Origin: a virus
Virus record (IMG/VR): IMGVR_UViG_3300031576_000180
Location: 1-37,990 of that record
DNA: 37,990 nucleotides
Reading direction: 5' to 3' (one strand)
In this document: positions 3,576 through 26,134 of the stretch, one piece after another
Position numbering within the stretch: the first letter of the stretch is position 1
Layout: each line of letters begins with the position of its first letter
Position numbers and translations under genes: made by a program
Notes under the pieces: model-generated
The model's input: only the letters and a program-made list of their open reading frames with translations
What the model was told of the DNA's origin: nothing
Databases searched by the model: none

Positions 3576-3788
3576 ATGGTAAAGAAGAAGGCAAATTGGA
3601 TCAGGGGGGCAATCAAGAGGCCTGGTGCGCTGAGGAAAGCGCTGGGGGCCAAGAAGGGGAAGCCGATACCGGCGGGGAAGTTGAGGGGCGCGGCCAAGAA
3701 GGGGGGGAAGGTAGGGGCAAGGGCGAGGCTGGCGCTGACGTTGAAGAAGATGGCGAGGAAGAGGAAGCGTGGGAGAGATAAGAAGTAA
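3576..3788 (+). CDS. Small highly basic phage protein, 70 aa
   Basis: The protein is about one third Lys/Arg and starts MVKKKANWIRGAIKRPGALR. The WI(R/K)GAIK(R/K)PGAL motif is typical of a family of very small basic proteins found in tailed phage genomes, often beside packaging or structural genes, whose role is unknown; DNA compaction or head assembly are guesses. A strong ribosome binding site (GAGGAG) precedes ATG 3576. The stop TAA shares its last A with the ATG of TerL, so the two are translationally coupled. Confidence 0.85.
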   Translation: MVKKKANWIRGAIKRPGALRKALGAKKGKPIPAGKLRGAAKKGGKVGARARLALTLKKMARKRKRGRDKK

Positions 3789-5431
3789 TGGCAAAGAAGA
3801 AGGTGAAGCAGTCAGCAGTTGAGGAGGAGGCAACACCGTCTCGCGTGGTAGACCTGAACGCAATGAATGACGAGGAGTTGGATGCGTTCATTGATTCTGC
3901 CCCGCCTGAGTTCGTGGTCGAGTTTCGGGAGGCGCTGTTAGCCGCCAGTGCCAGGGATGCCAACAACGCCAAAGCCGTATGTGACTTTGGGGAGTTAGTC
4001 TTCGGCAAAGTAGCGGCCAAGCACCACCGGGAATGGTTGGAGGAGGAGACGCAGAGCAACCGGGTGTGCATTCAGGCTCCGCCGTCATCGGCCAAGACTA
4101 CCTGGATTACTATTATCAAGACGGCCTGGTTCATCGGCAAGCATCCTGAGAAGTCGAACGCGATCTGCTCTGCGGCAGACGATGCCGCAGAGGACATGGC
4201 GAAAGCCATAGCTGACACTATCGAACTCAATCCGAACTGGAAGAAGGTGTTTCCTCACATCATTCCCCATCCGGCAAAGGGCTGGAGTGCAAACGGTTAT
4301 CACGTCCGGGACGCCCGCTACACCGTCGAGGAGTGGGAGAAGGTGATCGGGGGCGATAAGAACCCGACCTTTCTGGGCGGGGGTGTGGGGAGCAAGCGTT
4401 TCAACGGTCTGCGTGTGACAGGCCGGTTCGTCATGGACGACGGCCACGACCGCAAGAGCAAGACCAGCGACGCCGATTGCAAGGGAGTGGTTGACTTTCT
4501 CAAGGACACGGCAGAACCGAGAGTCGAGGGCGGCTCACTGACCATCATCCAGACCCGCTGGAATCCTAAAGATGTCGTCAACCACTGTGAGACTCTGAAA
4601 CGGGATGACGGCACGAGCATCTACAAGGTCTTCAAACATCCGGCGCTGACTGAGGCGGGCGAGAGCTATTGGGAAGAGGTCAGACCTCTCAAGGAATTGG
4701 AAGATACTCGTCTTATCGTGGGTGAGATTGACTTTCAACTCATCTACTTGGGCAACGACACGGCCACGCAAGGCCAAATCCTCAAAGCCGAAGCCCTGCG
4801 CTGGTATCCCTATTTGCAAATCAAGTCTGAGTGGGAGCGATACTTCGGCGTAGACTTCGCCATGAAACTACAGGAATTATCCGCCGCCGACGAAGCCAAG
4901 CACAGCCGCTTTGCAGTGGCAATTCTGGCTTACAACGGACGGCATCTGGTGTTAGAGGATGGCTACGTAGGTGTCATCTATGCCGGTGAAGCCGAGGAGA
5001 CATTCTTTTCACTGGCTGACCTGCATCGCCCCGTTCGATGCGGTATTGAAGTCAATGCCCAGAATCGCCGCTTCTACAACGACCTGACGGCGAGGAAGAT
5101 CACCTCGGGCCGAGCCTGGCTCAACCTGATGAAAGTGGACACGACCCAAAACATGGGCGCGAGAATGGCGGAGATGGAGCCTGACTTCCGCTTGGGTACG
5201 ATCATGGTCTCCGATAGCGGCTTGCCATTCCTTGACGAGTTCAAAGCGGAGTGGTTGGGCTTCGGCAACAAGGGCGTCCGCAACGACACCCTAAGCGCCG
5301 CCCACCTCGCCCGCCACGCCGCCTACAATCTGCTCCCACGTGAGTCACCGGAACAGATACGTAGGCGGCAGAACGCCAAGACGCCGCTCTCAATTGGTCA
5401 ACAGATTGAAGCGGCCTATGGACTGCGATAA
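3788..5431 (+). CDS. terL: Terminase large subunit
   Basis: Packaging motor ATPase and nuclease, 547 aa, the expected size. The ATPase part has a deviant Walker A (APPSSAKTT, K103, T104) and a Walker B with D217-D218 (GRFVMDDGHD). A C motif-type segment TIIQTRWNPKDV follows at about 251-262. The nuclease part begins with VDFAM (D356) and continues with AVAILAYNGRHLVLEDGYVG, the RNase H-fold pattern of TerL nucleases. It cuts concatemeric DNA and pumps it through the portal encoded next door. It starts on the last base of the preceding gene and ends two bases before the portal ATG. The N-terminal 60 residues are acidic and variable. Confidence 0.95.
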   Translation: MAKKKVKQSAVEEEATPSRVVDLNAMNDEELDAFIDSAPPEFVVEFREALLAASARDANNAKAVCDFGELVFGKVAAKHHREWLEEETQSNRVCIQAPPSSAKTTWITIIKTAWFIGKHPEKSNAICSAADDAAEDMAKAIADTIELNPNWKKVFPHIIPHPAKGWSANGYHVRDARYTVEEWEKVIGGDKNPTFLGGGVGSKRFNGLRVTGRFVMDDGHDRKSKTSDADCKGVVDFLKDTAEPRVEGGSLTIIQTRWNPKDVVNHCETLKRDDGTSIYKVFKHPALTEAGESYWEEVRPLKELEDTRLIVGEIDFQLIYLGNDTATQGQILKAEALRWYPYLQIKSEWERYFGVDFAMKLQELSAADEAKHSRFAVAILAYNGRHLVLEDGYVGVIYAGEAEETFFSLADLHRPVRCGIEVNAQNRRFYNDLTARKITSGRAWLNLMKVDTTQNMGARMAEMEPDFRLGTIMVSDSGLPFLDEFKAEWLGFGNKGVRNDTLSAAHLARHAAYNLLPRESPEQIRRRQNAKTPLSIGQQIEAAYGLR

Positions 5432-7368: not shown

Positions 7369-8286
7369 ATGCCCCAGAAAAGTAAGCCTCAAGGACAACG
7401 TCCACAGCCCAAGATGGGCGGCCCTACCGTAAGGCGCAATCAGCCTGGCCGCCCACAGCCCAGAATACAAGGCCCGTATCGCTCCTCTCCCCGGCCTAAT
7501 GCACCTCAGTCGCCATTCAATCGGCCTCCTCAGCGCCCGAACTATCCGCCTGGCCCGATGCCGCCAAACCGTCGGCCGCCTCGGCGACCCCAATGGCGGC
7601 CCGGTGGACAGCCGAATGGTGGTGGCCCGAAGGTATTCAACATGCCAGCAGCTTACCAGCACCTTCTCCGTGAGCGTTCGATGGGGGCAGGTCGTAGCGT
7701 AGGCGGCCCGGCCTTCCCTCAGCCTCCCGGTGGACAACTCCGCACTGTCCCCGGTGGTGTTCCACAGATGCCTCAGCGTCCCTCGATGGGCGCAAGCAGT
7801 GGTGCGCCGCAGATGCCGGTTGCGGGTGGTGTGCCTCGACCTCTGCCTGTTCGGCCCCAACCTGTTGCCCCTGACCAATACATGCAACAGTTCACTGATC
7901 CGCGTGACATCTACAAGGCGCAATTCGAGAACCGGGCAAGATGGGCGACCGGCTCACTTACTCCTCAAGCTCAACAATACGTGTTTTCCACACCGTTTTA
8001 CGTCGCTCCCAATCGTATCAGCAGTTACAACCCCGGCACAAACGCGATCTCATTCAACAATGCTTCGCCCTACCTCATGCAACACGAGTACAGTCACGGC
8101 TTAGGCTGGAACGCGGGACAGAACCGGTCTTTTCCATCCGGCTTTGACTCTGCCCTTCAGCAATACTATGGCGACGGACGCGATCCGGTAGAGTGGTATG
8201 CGTTCATGGCCCAATCGCCATCGTTTATTCCGTCTGAATTACGCCAGTTCTTTCCGCAGTTCAAACCGTCCGTGTACGGCCCATAG
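7369..8286 (+). CDS. Proline-rich virion protein with HExxH metallopeptidase motif (paralogue 1)
   Basis: The first 200 residues are Pro/Gln/Arg-rich and disordered-looking, with repeats of the form FNRPPQRPN. A compact C-terminal domain (about 205-305) contains QHEYSHGLGW with H239, E240 and H243, and an EWYAF segment whose E275 could be the third zinc ligand, followed by FIPSELRQFFPQF. The neighbour at 8296-9267 has the same layout, which supports a conserved zincin-like domain. The role could be cleavage of a virion or host envelope protein, or a structural zinc site. A ribosome site (AAGGTG) precedes ATG 7369. It lies between portal and the giant internal protein, so a virion location is inferred. 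Confidence 0.75.
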   Translation: MPQKSKPQGQRPQPKMGGPTVRRNQPGRPQPRIQGPYRSSPRPNAPQSPFNRPPQRPNYPPGPMPPNRRPPRRPQWRPGGQPNGGGPKVFNMPAAYQHLLRERSMGAGRSVGGPAFPQPPGGQLRTVPGGVPQMPQRPSMGASSGAPQMPVAGGVPRPLPVRPQPVAPDQYMQQFTDPRDIYKAQFENRARWATGSLTPQAQQYVFSTPFYVAPNRISSYNPGTNAISFNNASPYLMQHEYSHGLGWNAGQNRSFPSGFDSALQQYYGDGRDPVEWYAFMAQSPSFIPSELRQFFPQFKPSVYGP

Positions 8287-8344
8287 GAGATCGCCATGCC
8301 ACGTCAACCCCCACCCGGCTGGCAATTGCCGCCGTCCTTCAATC
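8280..8344 (+). repeat. 65-bp direct repeat, copy 1 (start cassette)
   Basis: These 65 bases are identical to 9261-9325. They cover the stop TAG of the preceding gene, the ribosome site GGAG, the ATG and the first 16 codons (MPRQPPPGWQLPPSFN) of the gene at 8296. Confidence 0.95.
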
Positions 8345-9267
8345 GGCCTCCTCGTGGCCCGAAGGCGTTCTATACGCCCCGACCGTATCGGCAACCTCCG
8401 CCAATGCGCCAACCGCCTCAGGGTTGGACTCCTCCACCTCCCTTCAATCTCCAGCAGGGACAGGTGCGATATCGATCTACTCCTCAATACGGATGGGCGT
8501 CAGAAGGGTGGGGCAACTTCCAAACCTCTCCGCCCGTCTCTCGCTTCGGCGCATTGCCAATTGCTGGTGGATACGGCGAATGGCTTCAGAGACGGCAGGC
8601 TGGCGTCGTTGCCCCTGGTCAGTTCGGAGTGAGTGGCGGCGCGCCCCAAGCGATACACGCCGGTGGTGTGCCTCGACGTATCCCAACTAATCCGATTGAC
8701 GCCACGAGTTCGGCTGAGGCGAGGTCTGATGCTTACAAGCGAATGCAAGAACATCGGATAGCAATGATGGCCGACCTCTCGCCTTACGGTCGCCAGATTG
8801 CTCTCCAGACACCTTTTGAAATGGGAGGACACGGCAGACGTCCGACTGAGGCGGATGCGTATTACTATCCCAACGTGAACCGGATAAGAGCCTGGTCGAC
8901 AAATCCCGGCCTCCTTCGTCACGAGTATGGACATGCTTTCGGTTGGGCGCAAGACCCTTCGGGTGTTCCGCAAGGTTTTCAGAATGCCGCAGAGAATGAT
9001 ATTGTCTGGGGCGGTTTCAATGGCCCTGCTGCACCGAATTTTCCGGGCATGTTCGGCAATCCCCAACCTCCGGGGGTTTGGGGTGGGCCAGCAGAATTTT
9101 ATGCTCATCTCAACACTGCTCCTGCATACATCCCGCCCAAATTGCGCCCGTACTTCCCGCAATTTAGCGAACAGACTTTTGCGCCTCGACCTGGTTGGGA
9201 CTGGAAGTATGTCACTTTTGAGGATGGGAGTCAGGGTTGGACTTATACTCCCATCACAAACCCATAG
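8296..9267 (+). CDS. Proline-rich virion protein with HExxH metallopeptidase motif (paralogue 2)
   Basis: 323 residues with the same plan as its upstream neighbour: a Pro-rich leader (1-80) with FNRPP and FNLQQ blocks, then a longer linker and a domain with RHEYGHAFGW (H209, E210, H213), a later AEFYAHL (E267) and YIPPKLRPYFPQF. The shared HEY(S/G)H...E(W/F)YA...(F/Y)IP..LR..FPQF order over both genes argues that the domain is functional in both, although the distance from HExxH to the Glu differs (32 and 54 residues). Ribosome site GGAG precedes ATG 8296. Probably virion-associated by context. The substrate is unknown. Confidence 0.75.
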   Translation: MPRQPPPGWQLPPSFNRPPRGPKAFYTPRPYRQPPPMRQPPQGWTPPPPFNLQQGQVRYRSTPQYGWASEGWGNFQTSPPVSRFGALPIAGGYGEWLQRRQAGVVAPGQFGVSGGAPQAIHAGGVPRRIPTNPIDATSSAEARSDAYKRMQEHRIAMMADLSPYGRQIALQTPFEMGGHGRRPTEADAYYYPNVNRIRAWSTNPGLLRHEYGHAFGWAQDPSGVPQGFQNAAENDIVWGGFNGPAAPNFPGMFGNPQPPGVWGGPAEFYAHLNTAPAYIPPKLRPYFPQFSEQTFAPRPGWDWKYVTFEDGSQGWTYTPITNP

Positions 9268-9325
9268 GAGATCGCCATGCCACGTCAACCCCCACCCGGC
9301 TGGCAATTGCCGCCGTCCTTCAATC
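9261..9325 (+). repeat. 65-bp direct repeat, copy 2 (start cassette)
   Basis: Identical to 8280-8344 in all 65 bases, again spanning stop codon, ribosome site, ATG and the first codons of the downstream gene. Perfect identity in otherwise diverged genes indicates a recent duplication or gene conversion. Confidence 0.95.
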
Positions 9326-10023
9326 TCCAGAATGCGCCTTATACGCCAGGGTGGACTCAAGGCGGGGCAGCTTCACCCCCGCCTAACTATCAGTCCTACA
9401 GCGGGGGTGCGCCGTCCCCGGCCAGCGGTGTCTACTCCGCCCCGCCCTCGTTCTATAATCCATCTTATGGCAGCTACTCAGCCTACTCTGCCGAACCAGA
9501 GCCTGCGCCGGAAAGCGAATCTGATTATTGGGATATGCCGAACCCCGGCGATTGGGCATTTCCGCCTGAGGGTGGGCCGGGGTTTCGCTGGGAGCCAACG
9601 ACGGGACAATGGCTTCCACCAAACTTTTTCTCCGATCTCAATTGGATGGACTATGACCAACCTTCATCGGGAGATGGTGAAGGGGAGCCTCCGCCCTGGT
9701 GGGGACAGACTGCTCCTGCCGTTCCCAAGCCAGTCAAGCCAAAAGCGCCCGGTTTTCTGTCTGTTCCCGGCACATCTCCCTTCCTGGAGTTCTCCGACCA
9801 GACTCTTGGCTACGGCTCGCCGGCGTTCCAACAATACCTGCCGCAGTTCCTCCAGAACGAAGGCTTCACTGGTGTCGGCAACATCGGCCAGTACGGAGAG
9901 CGAACCTACAAGCGACCCACGCCCTACAGCTTCACCGAGGAAGACTACGGCGCGGTAGCTGACCCAACGCTGAGATCGTGGTTGAGATACTTCCTCGGCG
10001 GGGGTGTTCTGCCCGGAGTGTAG
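9277..10023 (+). CDS. Proline-rich virion protein without peptidase motif (paralogue 3)
   Basis: 248 residues. The first 16 are identical to those of the gene at 8296, and NLQ at the junction matches the second block of that gene. The body is Pro/Ser/Tyr/Trp-rich. No HExxH is present. The C-terminal part has FQQYLPQFLQNEGFTGVGNIGQYG, where QYLPQF resembles the end motif of the two peptidase-like neighbours. I read it as a relative that kept the leader and the tail motif and lost or replaced the zinc domain. It stops 11 bases before the start of the giant gene. Confidence 0.7.
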   Translation: MPRQPPPGWQLPPSFNLQNAPYTPGWTQGGAASPPPNYQSYSGGAPSPASGVYSAPPSFYNPSYGSYSAYSAEPEPAPESESDYWDMPNPGDWAFPPEGGPGFRWEPTTGQWLPPNFFSDLNWMDYDQPSSGDGEGEPPPWWGQTAPAVPKPVKPKAPGFLSVPGTSPFLEFSDQTLGYGSPAFQQYLPQFLQNEGFTGVGNIGQYGERTYKRPTPYSFTEEDYGAVADPTLRSWLRYFLGGGVLPGV

Positions 10024-10034
10024 GAGTGTAGTAA

Positions 10035-13000
10035 TTGCCTGAGCGTCGCCAGCCTCCTCCCAGGTACAAGCCCAAGATCAAGCCTAAGCCATATACGCGG
10101 CAGAGGCCTCAACTACGTGGTCCACGTGTTCCTGCTCCACGTTCTCCTCTCTCTCCCGCTACCCCTGCACCCGGCTCGTCTCCCATCACGCCTCCGGGGG
10201 GGAGTGCCCCCCGCTACCCGCGTCAACGGCCACAGCCACAAGCCCCACGCCCCGGCCCTGGTCAGCCACAAGCCCCGCATCAACCCGGCCTCCCGCCCCA
10301 ACTCTCACCCTGGGCGCGGCTGGCCATGGCCAGACGTGGGCAGATTGCCCTCCCGCAAGCGCAAGGCGGCCCGTCCGAGAGATCACAGGGGCGACCGTCC
10401 CGCCCTTCGTCCTTCGACACGCTCAGGACGCTCAGGGCAGGCTTCGGCCCACCTCCGTCCATCCCCGGTGCGATCCTCCCTGCCGTTGCCCAGGCGGTCA
10501 TCCCACGCATCCCGCGGCCGCCTCAGGCCGTCGTCCAGCAACCCCCACCGCAACCACCCTACCAGTATCAACCTGAGCAACCCAACCGCATCCTGGCTGG
10601 CCTCGACCGTCTCAGCGAGATGTTTGGCAACAAGAGGGTTGCACCGGCGATTGAGGAAGCGATTGAACCGGGACTTGAGAACGTGCGTGAACTAACGGCT
10701 GAGACGTTGAACCGGATAGGGCGATGGGCGACGGAGGCTCACGAGCGAGTCTACGCCCCGAACTACGAGGAATATCTGCCGCCCGTTGCTGGTGCGACAC
10801 CCGTCGGCGCAAAACATCCTGCTGGCATTCTCAGCCAACAGCAAGGACAGGTGACGAGCATCGTAGACATTCAGCCTGACGAGAAGAAAGGCATCTTCTC
10901 CGGCACGGACTACGTAGTGGTTAGACCTGATGGGCAAGCCGAGTTTGCGCCCCGTACCCGCGTCACTCAGCCTACGGTGCTGAGACGGGCGGGCAGGCTG
11001 GCCCAAGAGGGGTTGATGGGCCTTCTGCAAGGCACGTTCGGCGTAGCGGCTGAGGCGGTGGAGCGTACTGTCATTGGGCCGATGGGGCGGCAGGCGCAGA
11101 TGCCAACCACTCCCATTGAGTTGCCCGTCAGACTTCCAACCGGACAGGGTGGAACGGTGACTTATCAGCCGCCCACTCAGGCCAATGCTCCTCTGACTCC
11201 TCTCCCCGAAGCCGCTCAATCCTTCCAGACTGAGACGCTGGAGCAGGCCGCCCTCCGCACCTTCGGCAATACACCAGAGGTAGCCGAGGCTCTGGAGACA
11301 ACAGATCGCATTGCCTTCACCGGGCCGGAAGCGAGGCTCCGGGCTGTGGCCCGCCTGCTCAACGGCGAGGATGTTGAAGATGTCCTCTATGGCAACGGCG
11401 GCTACGTCATGGACACCCTCATGGACTTGGGTTTTGCCGATGATCCACTGAGGGCAATCCAATCCGATCCGCAGACGAATTACTATTACACCCGCCGCAA
11501 GGCTGAAGGCGCTGAGGATGACGAGATTGTGCAGGAGGTGGCAACGCAAGGGCTGCCGGGTGAAGCCAATCCCTGGGCGGAGGCGCTTGGGCAAACGGTG
11601 TTTGACCCGACTAACTTCATTGGCCTTGGCCTCATGGATGAGGCAGTAGAAGCAACCCGCGTCGCCAACACGAAGAAATGGTTTAGCGGCTCGATGGAGT
11701 TGGACACTGCCATCTCACTCGCCCGCAAGGAGTACGAACCGGCGCTCAAACTCGGAAGCCGAACGCTCCCTCTCGACTGGATGCCCCACGTCCGTACTCC
11801 CTCTGCCGCCCTCGCCCGCACTGCTACCCTGGCTGCCGATGGCATGAATGCAACCACGATGGTCTTTGCCGAGAATGCGATCAAGCTCACCCCCGAAGCG
11901 CGGCAAGCCCACATCCTTACCCAGCTCCAAGCCTACGTTGACCTGGCCGCTCCTGCCCCCAGGTTGGCCGATTTCAGAGGCGCGGCAGAGGCGGCAGAGG
12001 AAATTGCCACGCAACTCCTCAAGGTAACACCTGAGCAACAGTTGGCAGAGGCTGCTGCCAAGTGGGAGAGCAAGCGTCGTTTGGCCGAGACTGTTCTCGG
12101 AGACGTTCCCGTATCCCGCAGTGGCGCGGGTCAACTCGGAAGCGCCGTCCTGCGCCAACTCGTCACCGACCCGGCGACGGGTAAGATTTCCAAGAAGCTG
12201 ACTGAAGCCATTACCAGCGGCGAGAGTACGGGCAAGGTGCTGTCCGAGGTGATGAACGGCCTCAACGATGCCACTCTGCAATTGCTTCAACCTGCCCGGC
12301 GCGGAGCGAAGACCATTGAGCAATTCGTAGAGCTAGGCGGCAAGGCCCAGGACTTCCCGATATTTGAGCGAGGTCTGGCGGGCGCGGTGGAGCGGTGGAC
12401 AGTTCACAAGGCGGCGGCTGAGGCGGGCCTCAAGTACGATGTCTCACCCGTCACCCGCGCCATTGCCGGGAGCAACTTCCTTCGCAAGCACGTTGACAAT
12501 GCGTTGTGGACAACCTTCGCCCGGATGTCTCCGGCTTACACCGTTCGCAATGCGCTCAACAACATCACCACTGCCATTGTAGACAACAAGCTGTCAATGG
12601 TGGCGGGTAAGGACATTGACGCCTTTGAACTGCTCCTCGGTTCGCCTTCTGCGGCCAACAGGGGTATCGGGCAGGGGATTCAAGTCGGCGTTGGGCAAGA
12701 GGGCTTTTGGAAGGGCGGCTTTGCCGGTGAGTTCAAAGTTGGCGGCGTCCCCATTGGCGCTCAGGCCGTCGAACGCGCCTTCTCCCGCAACATCTGGTAC
12801 ACCGGGGCCAAGCAGTTCCTCGACCGCCAGATGACGCTCGGTAAGGCCATTCCCAATCTCCCGGCTGGTGTCCGGCTCAAGATGGGCGAGGATGCCGCGA
12901 GGCAGTTCACTCAGATGGTGGCCCGCAACTACGGCAACCCGGCTGAGGCGATGGAGTGGTTAGGCAAGCGGCTCGGTGGTGAGGCTGAACTGTGGCGAGT

Positions 13001-20097: not shown

Positions 20098-21312
20098 ATG
20101 CCTCAGACTACCAGTAATCTGTCCAACTCTCTCAGGACTCAATACATCGAGACCTATCAGGGCGCGGCAGATTTCGAGAAACTGTACGACCAGTTCGCCA
20201 CTCCCGCCGGGAAGGATATGGCGATGCTGGAAGAGGGGAGTTCGGTGCAAGTCCCGTTCCTCTCCGATATGACTCCCGGCACAACCGTGATCTCACAGAC
20301 CACTGATGTTACGCCCCAACAGTTGCGTGATGCAGTCGCAACCATTACTCTCACCTCACGCGGCGAAGCCCTCCAGTGGTCACAGTTGTTGAATATTCAG
20401 ACCTACACCGACTACGCCGACAAGCGAATCAAGGCTATCGGCAAGAACATGCAGGAGTCGGTGGAGCTTCTGGCGCTGGCGGCGGCTCTGCAAGGCGGTA
20501 ACGTCTTCCGGGCTGTAGCCCGTGCTTCGCTCGATGCGGGTACGGCTGGACATCGCCTGACCGACCTCATCATCAGCGAACTGGAAAGCCGATTGATGAC
20601 TCTCAAGTCGCCTCCATTCCTGATGGGCGGTGGAGATCGCAAGTGGGCGATGCTTGGGCATCCAGCAGTGTTCCACGACCTGCGGCAGGCGGCTAACGTC
20701 CTCGCCGTTGGGCAGTATCAGCAAGGCCGGATCATTCTCAACTTTGAACTGGGCGAGATTGGTTCGTTCAAGATCGTCCAATCCCCATGGGCAAAAGTTT
20801 TCGGCGCGGCTGGCGCGGATAACGGCTCAGTGGCCGCTACCACCATCGCCGCCGCAGTGACCGCAGGTGACAACAATGCTCTGGCGAAGTTCATTGAAGT
20901 GGCCTCGGCGACCAACATCACTGCCGGCAAGTGGCTCACCATCGGCACGGAGGAGACAGCCAACACTTTCCAGCCGACCAATGAGCGGGTGCTGGTCTCT
21001 GCCGATTACGTCTCTGGCACGCGCATTGACATCATCGGCGAGAGCGCCAATGGCGGCCTGCGCTTTGACCACGCGGTTGGCGCGGCAGTCCGCAATGCCG
21101 ACTCGGTCTACCCCGTTGTCTTCGGCGGCCCGATGTCCATCGCCAAAGTCTACGCAACTGAAGTCGGCGAGTACGGCGAGTTTGTTGAGCCAAACACTCA
21201 GGGCTTGCTCAACCAGTTCACCTCAGTGGGTTGGAAATTCTACGGCGGCTATGGCCGCTGGTCTGAGTCTTATATCCTGCGGGGCGAGTTTGCCTCAGTC
21301 CTGGACGCATAG
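20098..21312 (+). CDS. Major capsid protein, N4-gp56-like family
   Basis: 404 residues following scaffold. Features match the N4-gp56 family of HK97-fold capsid proteins: an N-terminal segment leading to DMTPGTTVISQTTDVTPQQL and ATITLTSRGEALQWSQL (the strand that gives the E-loop region), a long central spine-type helix (KRIKAIGKNMQESVELLAL), the HPAVFHDLRQAANV motif, the GEIGSFKIVQSP motif and a C-terminal VGEYGEFVEP and GWKFYGGYG. A domain at about 235-330 (AAATIAAAVTAGDN to GLRFDHAVG) looks inserted and exposed. Ribosome site AAGG precedes ATG 20098. The gene ends in TAG, which shows that TAG is a normal stop in this genome. Confidence 0.9.
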   Translation: MPQTTSNLSNSLRTQYIETYQGAADFEKLYDQFATPAGKDMAMLEEGSSVQVPFLSDMTPGTTVISQTTDVTPQQLRDAVATITLTSRGEALQWSQLLNIQTYTDYADKRIKAIGKNMQESVELLALAAALQGGNVFRAVARASLDAGTAGHRLTDLIISELESRLMTLKSPPFLMGGGDRKWAMLGHPAVFHDLRQAANVLAVGQYQQGRIILNFELGEIGSFKIVQSPWAKVFGAAGADNGSVAATTIAAAVTAGDNNALAKFIEVASATNITAGKWLTIGTEETANTFQPTNERVLVSADYVSGTRIDIIGESANGGLRFDHAVGAAVRNADSVYPVVFGGPMSIAKVYATEVGEYGEFVEPNTQGLLNQFTSVGWKFYGGYGRWSESYILRGEFASVLDA

Positions 21313-21736: not shown

Positions 21737-22015
21737 ATGTTCAAGGGCAACAAAGGGAAGGGGATGGTCAAGTCCCCTTCCCCTCTTAGGGCAGGCCCTT
21801 CGTCCTTCGACACGCTCAGGACGCTCAGGGCAGGTCTTCGCAATCCCCAAGCGTTAGTGGTCACTCTCGACCCGCTCTACGCCGCTAAGTACGCTTCCAT
21901 CATTTACACCCCTCACGGTTGGATTGGAATCAACCGCAGTAGCGGCGGGGAGGAACTGCTCCCGCGTGAGGCGTTCAAACTGCGCCGGGTGGATGAACTG
22001 GTAGGCGATGATTAG
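21737..22015 (+). CDS. Small hypothetical head protein with repeat-derived N-terminus, 92 aa
   Basis: The first 34 codons are made of repeat DNA: an imperfect hairpin (21753-21784) and the 40-bp nested-hairpin repeat (21795-21834), which encodes PSSFDTLRTLRAG at residues 21-33. The remaining part (RNPQALVVTLDPLYAAKYASIIYTPHGWIGINRSS) looks like an ordinary small phage protein. The start ATG 21737 has no good ribosome site and lies one base after the previous stop. The original start may have been replaced when the repeat inserted. The C-terminus overlaps the next gene by 8 bases. Function unknown. Confidence 0.6.
   Translation: MFKGNKGKGMVKSPSPLRAGPSSFDTLRTLRAGLRNPQALVVTLDPLYAAKYASIIYTPHGWIGINRSSGGEELLPREAFKLRRVDELVGDD
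21753..21784 (+). repeat. Inverted repeat beside the nested-hairpin repeat
   Basis: About twelve-base arms, purine-rich (21753-21764) and pyrimidine-rich (21773-21784), are complementary with one mismatch and an 8-base loop. It lies 10 bases upstream of repeat copy 2, inside the first codons of the gene at 21737, and may belong to the same inserted element. Confidence 0.7.
21795..21834 (+). repeat. Nested-hairpin repeat, copy 2
   Basis: Identical to 10402-10441 over 40 bases, with arms GCCCT/AGGGC and GTCCT/AGGAC. Encodes the same 13-residue peptide in the same frame as copy 1. Confidence 0.9.
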
Positions 22016-23205: not shown

Positions 23206-23363
23206 GACTCTTCAAGCTGACTATGGCCGTCTGGTATGAGCCGACTTGGGCCAAGTTCTTCCGCAAGTCCTGGCGCAAGCGCGGCTACTGGCTCGCTCAC
23301 CAACCGATGCAGTTCACTCTCGGCCCGATCCGGTTGGACGTGAAGCTGGAAGGTAAGCTATGA
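23202..23363 (+). CDS. Small basic aromatic protein, 53 aa
   Basis: A short gene fits exactly between its neighbours: ATG 23202 overlaps the previous stop as ATGA, and its own stop TGA at 23361-23363 overlaps the next ATG. The peptide is rich in Trp, Phe, Lys and Arg (WYEPTWAKFFRKSWRKRGYW), with a strand-like end (MQFTLGPIRLDVKLEGKL). No family recognised. The coupling on both sides supports that it is translated. Confidence 0.7.
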   Translation: MRLFKLTMAVWYEPTWAKFFRKSWRKRGYWLAHQPMQFTLGPIRLDVKLEGKL

Positions 23364-24628
23364 GTAATGTGACCGTCAAAAACGCGAGCGGCACAACCGT
23401 CTCCTTCAAGACCGATGGGGCGGGAAGTGACATTGATCCGCATATCTCGCACCTCGTCGTAGATGCTCCGCTCCCGGCGCTGGTAGCCGGTACGGCGAAC
23501 ATTGGCGACGTAGATGTGCTGACTCTGCCAGCGCTCCCGGCAGGCACAAACAACATTGGAGATGTAGACGTTCTGACTCTCCCGGCTCTCCCGGCTGGCA
23601 CCAATAACATAGGTGACGTAGACGTTCTGACCATTGCCGCTGGCGACAATAATATCGGCAATGTGGACGTGGTGACCATGCCGAGTATCACCATCGGCAC
23701 GATGGGCAATCTGACCGAGTCGCTGGTGGACGATGCCGCGTTCACTCCGGCGACAAGCCGTGTTGTGCCAGTGGGCTTCGAGTTTGACGATACCACGCCC
23801 GACTCGGTGAACGAGGGTGACATTGGCGCGGCCCGGATGAGCGCCAACCGTAACCTATACACCACACTCAGAGACGCGGCGGGGAACGAGCGGGGAGCGA
23901 ACGTTTCAGTCGGGAATGCACTGCTGGTGGATGCGAGTGCGACCACTCAGCCCGTCTCCGGCACAGTCAACGCTAACCTTGCGGCGGGGACAAACAACAT
24001 TGGCGACGTTGATGTTCTGACTCTGCCAGCCCTGCCTGCCGGAACCAATAATATTGGCGACATTGACGTTCTCACCCTTCCCGCACTTCCTGCCGGAACA
24101 AACAATATCGGAGATGTGGACGTATTGACCCTCCCGGCCTTGCCAGCTGGCACGAACAACATTGGCGACGTGGATGTTCTGACCATCGCCGCGGGTGACA
24201 ACAATATTGGTAATGTGGACGTGGTGACGCTTCCGGCACTGGTGGCCGGAACGGCCCTCGTCGGCTCAGTCAACGTTCAACTCGATGCCTCGACCATGCG
24301 CGACGGGGCGGGGACGGCGCTGACACCCAAGTTCGCAATCATTGACCATGCAACGAGCGGCAACAATACTTTGGTAGCGGCCGTGGCCTCCAAGAAAATC
24401 CGGGTGCTGGCCGGTCTTCTGATAGCGGCTGGCACAGTCATCGTTCGCTTCGAGTCTGGGGCAGATGGGACAGCCCTTACCGGCCAGATGAATCTCGTCG
24501 CCAACGTCGGCTTTCAAATCCCGTTCTGTCCAGTCGGCAACTTCGAGACGGCGGCCACTACCCTGCTCAACCTGGAGTTATCAGCGGCAGTGAGTGTAGA
24601 TGGCTGGATCGTTTACGTGGAGGTATAA
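23360..24628 (+). CDS. Repeat-rich virion protein (head or tail fibre type), 422 aa
   Basis: Two arrays of an 18-residue unit, consensus AGTNNIGDVDVLTLPALP, occupy about residues 38-115 and 208-300, with a shortened AAGDNNIGNVDVVT unit at the end of each. Between them is a conserved segment, SLVDDAAFTPATSRVVPVGFEF through RMSANRNLYTTLRD, which I recall from phage fibre or decoration proteins. The C-terminal 120 residues are a beta-rich head. The repeats suggest a beta-solenoid or fibrous shaft. The units are well conserved in protein but differ at many third codon positions, so the array is old and under protein-level selection. Start overlaps the preceding stop as ATGA. Confidence 0.82.
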   Translation: MSNVTVKNASGTTVSFKTDGAGSDIDPHISHLVVDAPLPALVAGTANIGDVDVLTLPALPAGTNNIGDVDVLTLPALPAGTNNIGDVDVLTIAAGDNNIGNVDVVTMPSITIGTMGNLTESLVDDAAFTPATSRVVPVGFEFDDTTPDSVNEGDIGAARMSANRNLYTTLRDAAGNERGANVSVGNALLVDASATTQPVSGTVNANLAAGTNNIGDVDVLTLPALPAGTNNIGDIDVLTLPALPAGTNNIGDVDVLTLPALPAGTNNIGDVDVLTIAAGDNNIGNVDVVTLPALVAGTALVGSVNVQLDASTMRDGAGTALTPKFAIIDHATSGNNTLVAAVASKKIRVLAGLLIAAGTVIVRFESGADGTALTGQMNLVANVGFQIPFCPVGNFETAATTLLNLELSAAVSVDGWIVYVEV

Positions 24629-24875: not shown

Positions 24876-25382
24876 ATGGCAACCCATCGTATTCCTATTC
24901 TCGGCTGGTCTGCTGTTCCTGATGGAAGCGGTAACGTCTTCTTCGAACCTTATGACGTGAAGGCCACTAACGACGTGTGGGACAGGTTGGTATTGACGTT
25001 CAATGACACCGCGACCCGCATCGGTATTCATGGCGGATTCACTGTTCCGAAAAACTATGTTGGAAGCGCGAAGTTGGTTGTCGTTTGGACAACAACAGCG
25101 ATAACCGGGGACGTAGAATGGGACTTTGATTATCGAGCCGTTGGCGGCGATGACACCGAGTCACTCGACCAGACTGGAACTCAAGAGTCAGTCAACCTCA
25201 ACGACACTGCGCCAAGCGCGGTCAACGAGCGGATGGAAACTGCCATAACTTTGACGGCGGGAAACTTTGCCGTAGACGACGAGGTTGAGTTTACTGCGTT
25301 CCGGGACGGCACAGACGCCGGTGATACTATCGCGGCGGCAGTGATGGTCTTCGCTCTGCTATTCGAGTACAGTGACGCCTGA
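24876..25382 (+). CDS. Beta-rich virion protein, 168 aa
   Basis: All-beta sequence with conserved-looking blocks: PYDVKATNDVWDRLVLTFNDTATRIGIHGGFTVP, AKLVVVWTTTAITGDVEWDFDYRAVGGDDTESLDQTGTQES and DEVEFTAFRDGTDAGDTIAAA. I recall related proteins in phage and environmental virus sequences, where they lie with fibre or head genes, but no function is assigned. No signal peptide. The stop overlaps the next start (TGATG), so it is coupled to the LamG-like gene. Capsid or fibre surface component by context. Confidence 0.78.
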   Translation: MATHRIPILGWSAVPDGSGNVFFEPYDVKATNDVWDRLVLTFNDTATRIGIHGGFTVPKNYVGSAKLVVVWTTTAITGDVEWDFDYRAVGGDDTESLDQTGTQESVNLNDTAPSAVNERMETAITLTAGNFAVDDEVEFTAFRDGTDAGDTIAAAVMVFALLFEYSDA

Positions 25383-26134
25383 TGGCTAGAGATTTCGATA
25401 ACAACACGGCTAACAATCTGTCCGTAGACGTAGCGGCGGTGGCTGTTGCGCCGCTGACGATGGCCTGCTGGTTCCGCTGTGACCTGAGTAACTCAGTAGA
25501 CGGGCTGATGTGGGTTGGGGATAAAGATGTAGCCGACCATTTCTGGGTGCTATTTGCTGATGGCGGTGTGGCAGGTGATCCAGTCAGGATGCGGGCAATT
25601 GCTGGCGGTACGGCCCAGACTGCCAGCACTTCCACCGGGTTTACGGCAGGTGTCTGGCATCATGCTTGCGGTGTGGAGGCATCAGCCACCAGCCGCTCGG
25701 CTTACATTGATGGCGGATCGAAAGCGACGAATACCACCAGCGTTTCTCCGGCTAACGCGGATCGAACTGCCATCGGTCTGTTCAACGACTCAACTCCATC
25801 AGGGCCTCATGATGGAAGAATTGCCGAGGCCGGGATTTGGGATGTGGCGCTTACCGACGCCGAAGTGAAAACGTTGGCCGATGGAGTATCTCCGCTTAAT
25901 GTCAGGCCAGCTAACCTCATTGCTTACTGGCCGCTTCACGGCAATCGCTCGCCAGAGCCGAACTTGGCTGGTGACCCGGCGCTGAATCTGACGATTGCCG
26001 GGACGGTAGCGCAAGCCGATCATGCGCCGGTGGCGCCGCCATTTGCTGAATTGGCTGGATGGCCGGGAGCATATACAGCGCCAGCCGCTCCAGGTGGACT
26101 CACACCCCGTCTGGCCCTATTAGGAGCAGGTTGA
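25382..26134 (+). CDS. LamG/concanavalin-like lectin-domain protein, 250 aa
   Basis: The first 200 residues follow the LamG-like jelly roll: LTMACWFRCDLSNSVDGLMWVGDKD, RMRAIAGG, GVWHHACGVEASATSRSAYIDGG, TAIGLFNDSTPSGPHDGRIAEAGIWDVALTDAEVKTLADG and NLIAYWPLHGN. The WHH and AEAGIWDVALTDAEV motifs are diagnostic. The end is Pro/Ala-rich. In phages such domains bind carbohydrate or proteins on the host surface, from the capsid or tail. Coupled to its neighbours on both sides (shared bases with the preceding stop and with the next ATG). Confidence 0.85.
   Translation: MARDFDNNTANNLSVDVAAVAVAPLTMACWFRCDLSNSVDGLMWVGDKDVADHFWVLFADGGVAGDPVRMRAIAGGTAQTASTSTGFTAGVWHHACGVEASATSRSAYIDGGSKATNTTSVSPANADRTAIGLFNDSTPSGPHDGRIAEAGIWDVALTDAEVKTLADGVSPLNVRPANLIAYWPLHGNRSPEPNLAGDPALNLTIAGTVAQADHAPVAPPFAELAGWPGAYTAPAAPGGLTPRLALLGAG

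Follow-up and report, generated by a model that had tools for sequence, protein, structure and literature searches.

A 40-nt palindromic element is present twice, without a single difference, in the 37,990-base window (the whole stretch of viral DNA analysed here). The element is very probably a REP-like bacterial palindrome that came from the host, was copied within the phage and is tolerated where it does no harm; its peptide would be a by-product. A repeat search of the window gives the two copies as an exact direct repeat (n = 2), and no third copy of the core is found in the window with up to 3 mismatches. The number of exact 40-mer pairs expected by chance in the window is about 1.5e-15. 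Both copies lie on the + strand, with the translation PSSFDTLRTLRAG. This confirms the initial annotation, which had reported forty shared bases read in one frame and had placed them in N-terminal regions (Table 1). The DNA is the same at every codon position, and the match stops at the edge of the element. Both carrying ORFs look real because of their start signals and gene overlaps. The giant ORF has a TTG start with AGGAG 8 nt upstream, and its N-terminus, (M)P, is as in neighbouring genes; the small gene follows immediately on the stop codon of the gene before it and overlaps the one after it.

Table 1. Positions of the repeat copies, their units and the genes referred to in the text.
Feature	Position	Strand	Remarks
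Terminase large subunit	3788..5431	+	phrog_38
Giant gene, 2994 aa	10035..19019	+	SLT transglycosylase domain at aa 2415-2465; copy 1 in proline-rich N-terminal region
Copy 1, nested palindromic element	10402..10441	+	Codons 124-136 of giant gene, PSSFDTLRTLRAG
Inner unit TCCTTCGACACGCTCAGGA of copy 1	10410..10428	+	In outer-unit loop; from sequence, core 10411-10426, and fold
Major capsid protein	20098..21312	+	phrog_1357; query for relatives
Small gene, 92 aa	21737..22015	+	3' of head-decoration-like gene; holds copy 2
Degenerate unit CCCTTCCCCTCTTAGGGCAGG	21775..21795	+	Abuts copy 2 on its 5' side; 0.00 expected
Copy 2, identical over 40 nt	21795..21834	+	Codons 21-33 of small gene, PSSFDTLRTLRAG
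Inner unit of copy 2	21803..21821	+	From sequence, core 21804-21819, and fold

The element is a hairpin within a hairpin. The outer unit is CCCTTCG-ACA-CGCTCAGGGCAGG (arms GCCCTTCG..CGCTCAGGGCAGG in copy 1), with its ACA loop swapped exactly for TCCTTCGACACGCTCAGGA, which is itself a unit with an ACA loop of its own. The hairpin first described is therefore real but is not a single unit: two units are nested, and a degenerate third adjoins copy 2. Because of the degenerate unit, CTYAGGGCAGG occurs twice at copy 2, with a spacing of 39 nt (13 codons); a tandem junction of this kind is also present in a bacterial copy (L098). As DNA, the 40-mer folds into a two-tier stem with a z-score of -2.3, and 5 of 200 shuffles fold equally well. 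The RNA fold is a two-tier stem too (-17.2 kcal/mol). Of the six reading frames in the phage element, one contains TGA and the other five are open.

The unit belongs to a bacterial family with the form YCCTTCGACACGCTCAGGRCAGGC, about 24 nt long and with sharp edges. Across 105 aligned sites conservation ends at Y(-1) and C(+22), and the flanks are near random; core and loop (CTTCGACANGCTCAG) are conserved and the outer stem arms vary. The 22-mer CCTTCGACACGCTCAGGRCAGG has exact matches in 105 contig stretches of bacterial genomes, which represent at least 12 phyla. These include Chloroflexota (many Anaerolineae), Acidobacteriota, Pseudomonadota, Verrucomicrobia/Lentisphaerae, Planctomycetes, Bacteroidetes and Nitrospirae, and also Binatia, Methylomirabilota, Zixibacteria, Eremiobacterota, Latescibacterota and WOR-3. 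The core CCTTCGACNNGCTCAGG reaches 134 copies in genome G009, 114 in G015, 69 in G028 and 57 in G001; these belong to a set of 19 genomes chosen for holding the 22-mer, and their copy numbers are not typical values. None of the 19 has a match to the reversed-pattern control. Cellular genomes carry the unit on both strands in similar numbers. The reading as a mobile-looking dispersed repeat, abundant in Chloroflexota, is supported. Viruses rarely carry the core, which occurs in 9 stretches in a set of 2.9 million viral contigs. Viral matches L202-L204 were considered as insertions and rejected, as they have in common a native-looking coding sequence, DFTFDTLRTDL.

The nested form has a different distribution from the unit. 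The exact nested 38-mer is absent from both viral contigs and genome contigs, the exact 27-mer from viral contigs, and the nested 35-mer (up to 3 mismatches) from 32 genomes and from 400 genomes of the Chloroflexota phylum. A complete lack of bacterial matches, which the initial annotation had named as evidence against its own reading, applies to the exact nested 38-mer alone; matches to the unit are widespread. Since neither the 38-mer nor the 35-mer is found in the genomes searched, the phage could be where the nested form arose. A blastn search of the 40-mer against phages and plasmids gives partial matches only (E >= 0.1), and most of those in plasmids lie where no gene is listed.

Bacterial copies are located in intergenic DNA, in hairpin loops or other palindromes, in one another and in conserved genes. 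Nesting is seen at several bacterial sites (L078, L105, L064 and L052; also in G060 and G065) and on one Anaerolineaceae chromosome (L189, L196 and L199); at L199 the exact inner unit of the phage lies inside a different outer unit. Flanks pair with a stem of at least 8 at 6 of 123 sites, against a shuffle mean of 1.3 and a maximum of 5 in 200, in a test somewhat inflated by a few sites closely related to each other. Flank pairing is modestly above the shuffles and is consistent with sites in hairpin loops. Many copies in G009 form head-to-head pairs, with -/+ cores 21-32 nt apart; such pairs are not the rule in G018. The G009 pairs at L160-L166 are of a longer-arm subtype (CCGTTCGCCCTTCGACACGCTCAGGGTGAGCGG) and have complementary spacers in both orientations. 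At L081, L188, L192 and L197 the unit lies within another interspersed palindrome, of the GTCATTGCGAGC..GAAGCAATCTC type, which suggests that unrelated repeat families stack at hairpins.

Copies within bacterial genes are common, and all five open frames are used. Called ORFs hold 45 of 106 bacterial sites, distributed 12/9/7 over the frames of the + strand and 5/12 over the open frames of the - strand; the stop-containing frame has 0. By chance this absence would have a probability of 0.83^45 = 2.7e-4, and it partly follows from ORF calling: genes were called crudely, as the longest ORFs, a procedure that necessarily cuts them short at the stop frame. Subject to this bias, the idea that the repeat persists in genes only where its frame is open is supported. 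Three further genes end at the element's stop frame. At L029, L054 and L059 the TGA frame appears to give the flanking gene its stop (..GLS*, ..QSLP* and ..ASSLP*). Judged against distant homologues, several conserved bacterial proteins appear to carry the element as an in-frame insert. In a P-type ATPase it corresponds to an exact 8-residue insert relative to 6zhh; in an ETF-quinone oxidoreductase and in a clamp-loader delta-prime-like protein it falls in gaps of 6 and 11 residues, respectively, of a solved homologue. In SelA, where it is in the phage's own frame, and in MoeA it is part of a longer insert. Because of these inserts, in-frame residence in working-looking genes appears to be general and frame-neutral.

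MW202842, listed as a Podoviridae sp. from Manatee Spring, is the closest annotated relative of the phage. It and the window are colinear across terminase, giant gene, capsid, decoration protein and the following genes, and L003-L006 are likewise colinear across the structural region. The giant proteins of the relatives align to that of the window only from residue 512 onward. They are shorter than the 2994-aa product or otherwise built. The proline-rich N-terminal region has no counterpart in the relatives found, and the small gene has no homologue in the syntenic relatives (L003-L006 and MW202842) or in viral contigs. As the colinear relatives have neither carrying segment, both copies appear to lie in lineage-specific sequence. 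None of the relatives' records contains the repeat core; the sole exact match to a loose pattern, CTTCGACCTTCTCAG in the record of L003, is without the family's GCTCAG half. Terminase, giant gene and the tail of the small gene gave no relatives as queries in viral contigs. No homologue of either carrying segment free of the element was found, and the insertion event was not directly seen.

A functional peptide motif common to two structural proteins (a binding, processing or packaging tag), kept by selection at the protein level, would account for the use of one strand and one frame for the same 13 residues near the N-terminus of two genes of the virion region. However, the DNA is identical at synonymous positions too, and the identity ends at the edge of the element and not at a protein boundary. 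The phage relatives found are without the repeat, and bacterial genes read the same DNA in four other frames. A common frame had initially been regarded as telling; going by the bacterial frame frequencies, two copies would have a common strand and frame by chance in about 22% of cases, and with five of six frames open a shared frame is in itself not improbable. The functional peptide offered as an alternative is thus not supported, and we regard it as highly improbable. That the two phage genes use a common frame probably reflects tolerance and chance. Insertion into unrelated proteins has also been held to argue against function (PMC3733652).

A recombination or regulatory hairpin of the phage's own (such as an RNA element of the structural-gene transcript), lying in coding sequence by chance, is quite improbable. 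Such a hairpin would fit the good RNA fold and the location of both copies on the transcribed strand. However, no Rfam family is found in the window at the gathering threshold (matches in the element loci are all sub-threshold), the phage relatives have no counterpart, and the unit is dispersed in cellular genomes without strand preference. An assembly artefact, either a chimera or a misjoin at a repeat common to host reads, deserves mention as the repeat is of the host type at which assemblies break or join and the window comes from a sequence collection, as a virus contig. It is exceedingly improbable: both genes are open through the element, the window is colinear with MW202842 across it, and the frame would have to survive a misjoin in two places.

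A bacterial palindrome taken up from the host would explain the two copies as follows. A host genome would have been the source of the unit YCCTTCGACACGCTCAGGRCAGGC. The nested form would have resulted from the insertion, or copying, of one unit into the loop of an earlier one, and would then have been copied once within the phage. Movement may proceed via single-stranded hairpin DNA, by means of an enzyme or of template switching. Tolerance in the two phage genes would stem from shortness, five open frames, a frame-keeping length (39 nt, 13 codons) and landing sites that are poorly conserved and probably flexible. PSSFDTLRTLRAG would then have no function as a peptide.

Y1 (RAYT) transposases are believed to mobilise REP-like elements (PMC3733652, PMC8266576). 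PF01797 is present in 12 of the 19 genomes in a profile search whose controls matched, but has no match in the genomes with 134 and 69 core copies (G009 and G028), which may be incomplete. RAYT as a required partner is not supported by these two genomes. The mover may be a Y1 enzyme that incomplete assemblies lack or a different enzyme, or the copies may arise by template switching during replication at hairpins.

Intragenic REPs and in-frame Rickettsia elements are already known, and the element works like both. It resembles REPs and REPINs (GTAG and CGTC super-families; PMC3733652, PMC3116915) as a short palindrome with high copy number in some genomes and on both strands, with some copies as inverted pairs (the head-to-head pairs of G009) and some within genes. 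Its size and copy number are also those of REPs (a hairpin unit of about 24 nt, 40 nt in the phage form, and up to 134 core copies). Unlike GTAG and CGTC REPs, it has no such terminal motif in the 105 aligned sites; unlike REPs, it has one 22-mer across at least 12 phyla, with conserved core and loop and variable outer arms. Rickettsia palindromic elements are likewise in-frame palindromic repeats in many unrelated protein genes (PMC3733652, PMC10969869), and the element here resides in frame in intact genes (those for the ATPase, the ETF-quinone oxidoreductase, the delta-prime-like protein, SelA and MoeA, and both phage genes). However, those elements belong to Rickettsia and are described as about 150 bp long (PMC10969869), in a general range of about 100-150 bp, whereas the unit here has 24-40 nt and occurs in many phyla and a phage. 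Membership is not claimed because each comparison lacks one defining feature. IS200/IS605-like single-strand (HUH, Y1) elements and their REP relatives (PMC6006769, PMC8266576) also have hairpins at or as the element and use hairpin-loop sites; unlike them, the element carries no transposase, and its richest genome has no Y1 match. By analogy, a single-strand (HUH, Y1)-type route is a plausible way of moving. In comparison with MITEs, no target duplication is conserved in the flanks, and the CTYAGGGCAGG that flanks copy 2 is part of the unit itself.

The initial annotation had also linked the phage to a Chloroflexota host. The flavour CCTTCGACACGCTCAGG is found in 9/100 genomes of the Chloroflexota phylum, 1/99 of the phylum of G028 and 0/98 of the phylum of G021 (sampled, with the centres left out); Fisher p = 0.018 for Chloroflexota against the phylum of G028. 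These frequencies are in line with the proposed link, but the 22-mer itself occurs in at least 12 phyla, and a search of 400 Chloroflexota-phylum genomes, run without a positive control, gave no relative of the capsid protein. A Chloroflexota host is no more than suggested.

Rickettsia and some REP-rich bacteria are the best-known sources of in-frame palindromic repeats. Here a short repeat has a near-identical core across many phyla and is present in housekeeping proteins in every open frame. The element and its peptides have no match in the open literature searched, and the palindrome family is apparently not described there. Odd peptides that such repeats add to predicted proteins from environmental genomes (PSTRSGQ, PFDTLRTG, LRHAQDR, ACPERVEG and LSVSKG) should be taken as repeat insertions, not motifs. 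A phage that carries the repeat could move it. It is a tentative and rather unlikely extension that a single palindrome family, 22 nt of it identical in at least 12 phyla, spreads via single-stranded DNA into hairpin loops (including its own) with no RAYT transposase resident in the genome, and is ferried between hosts by phages. What drives the spread can be tested in a genome such as G009.

The window contains other repeats. Two consecutive genes (8296-9267 and 9277-10023) share a 65-nt identical repeat (8280-8344 and 9261-9325) that covers their ribosome-binding sites and initial 16 codons (MPRQPPPGWQLPPSFN); several neighbours open with proline-rich MP.. segments. Just 3' of the head genes, a 422-aa ORF (23360-24628) has three imperfect 213-nt repeats with 62-77% identity (23471-24235). 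A tail-region gene encodes a Laminin-G-like (PF13385) lectin domain (25382-26134).
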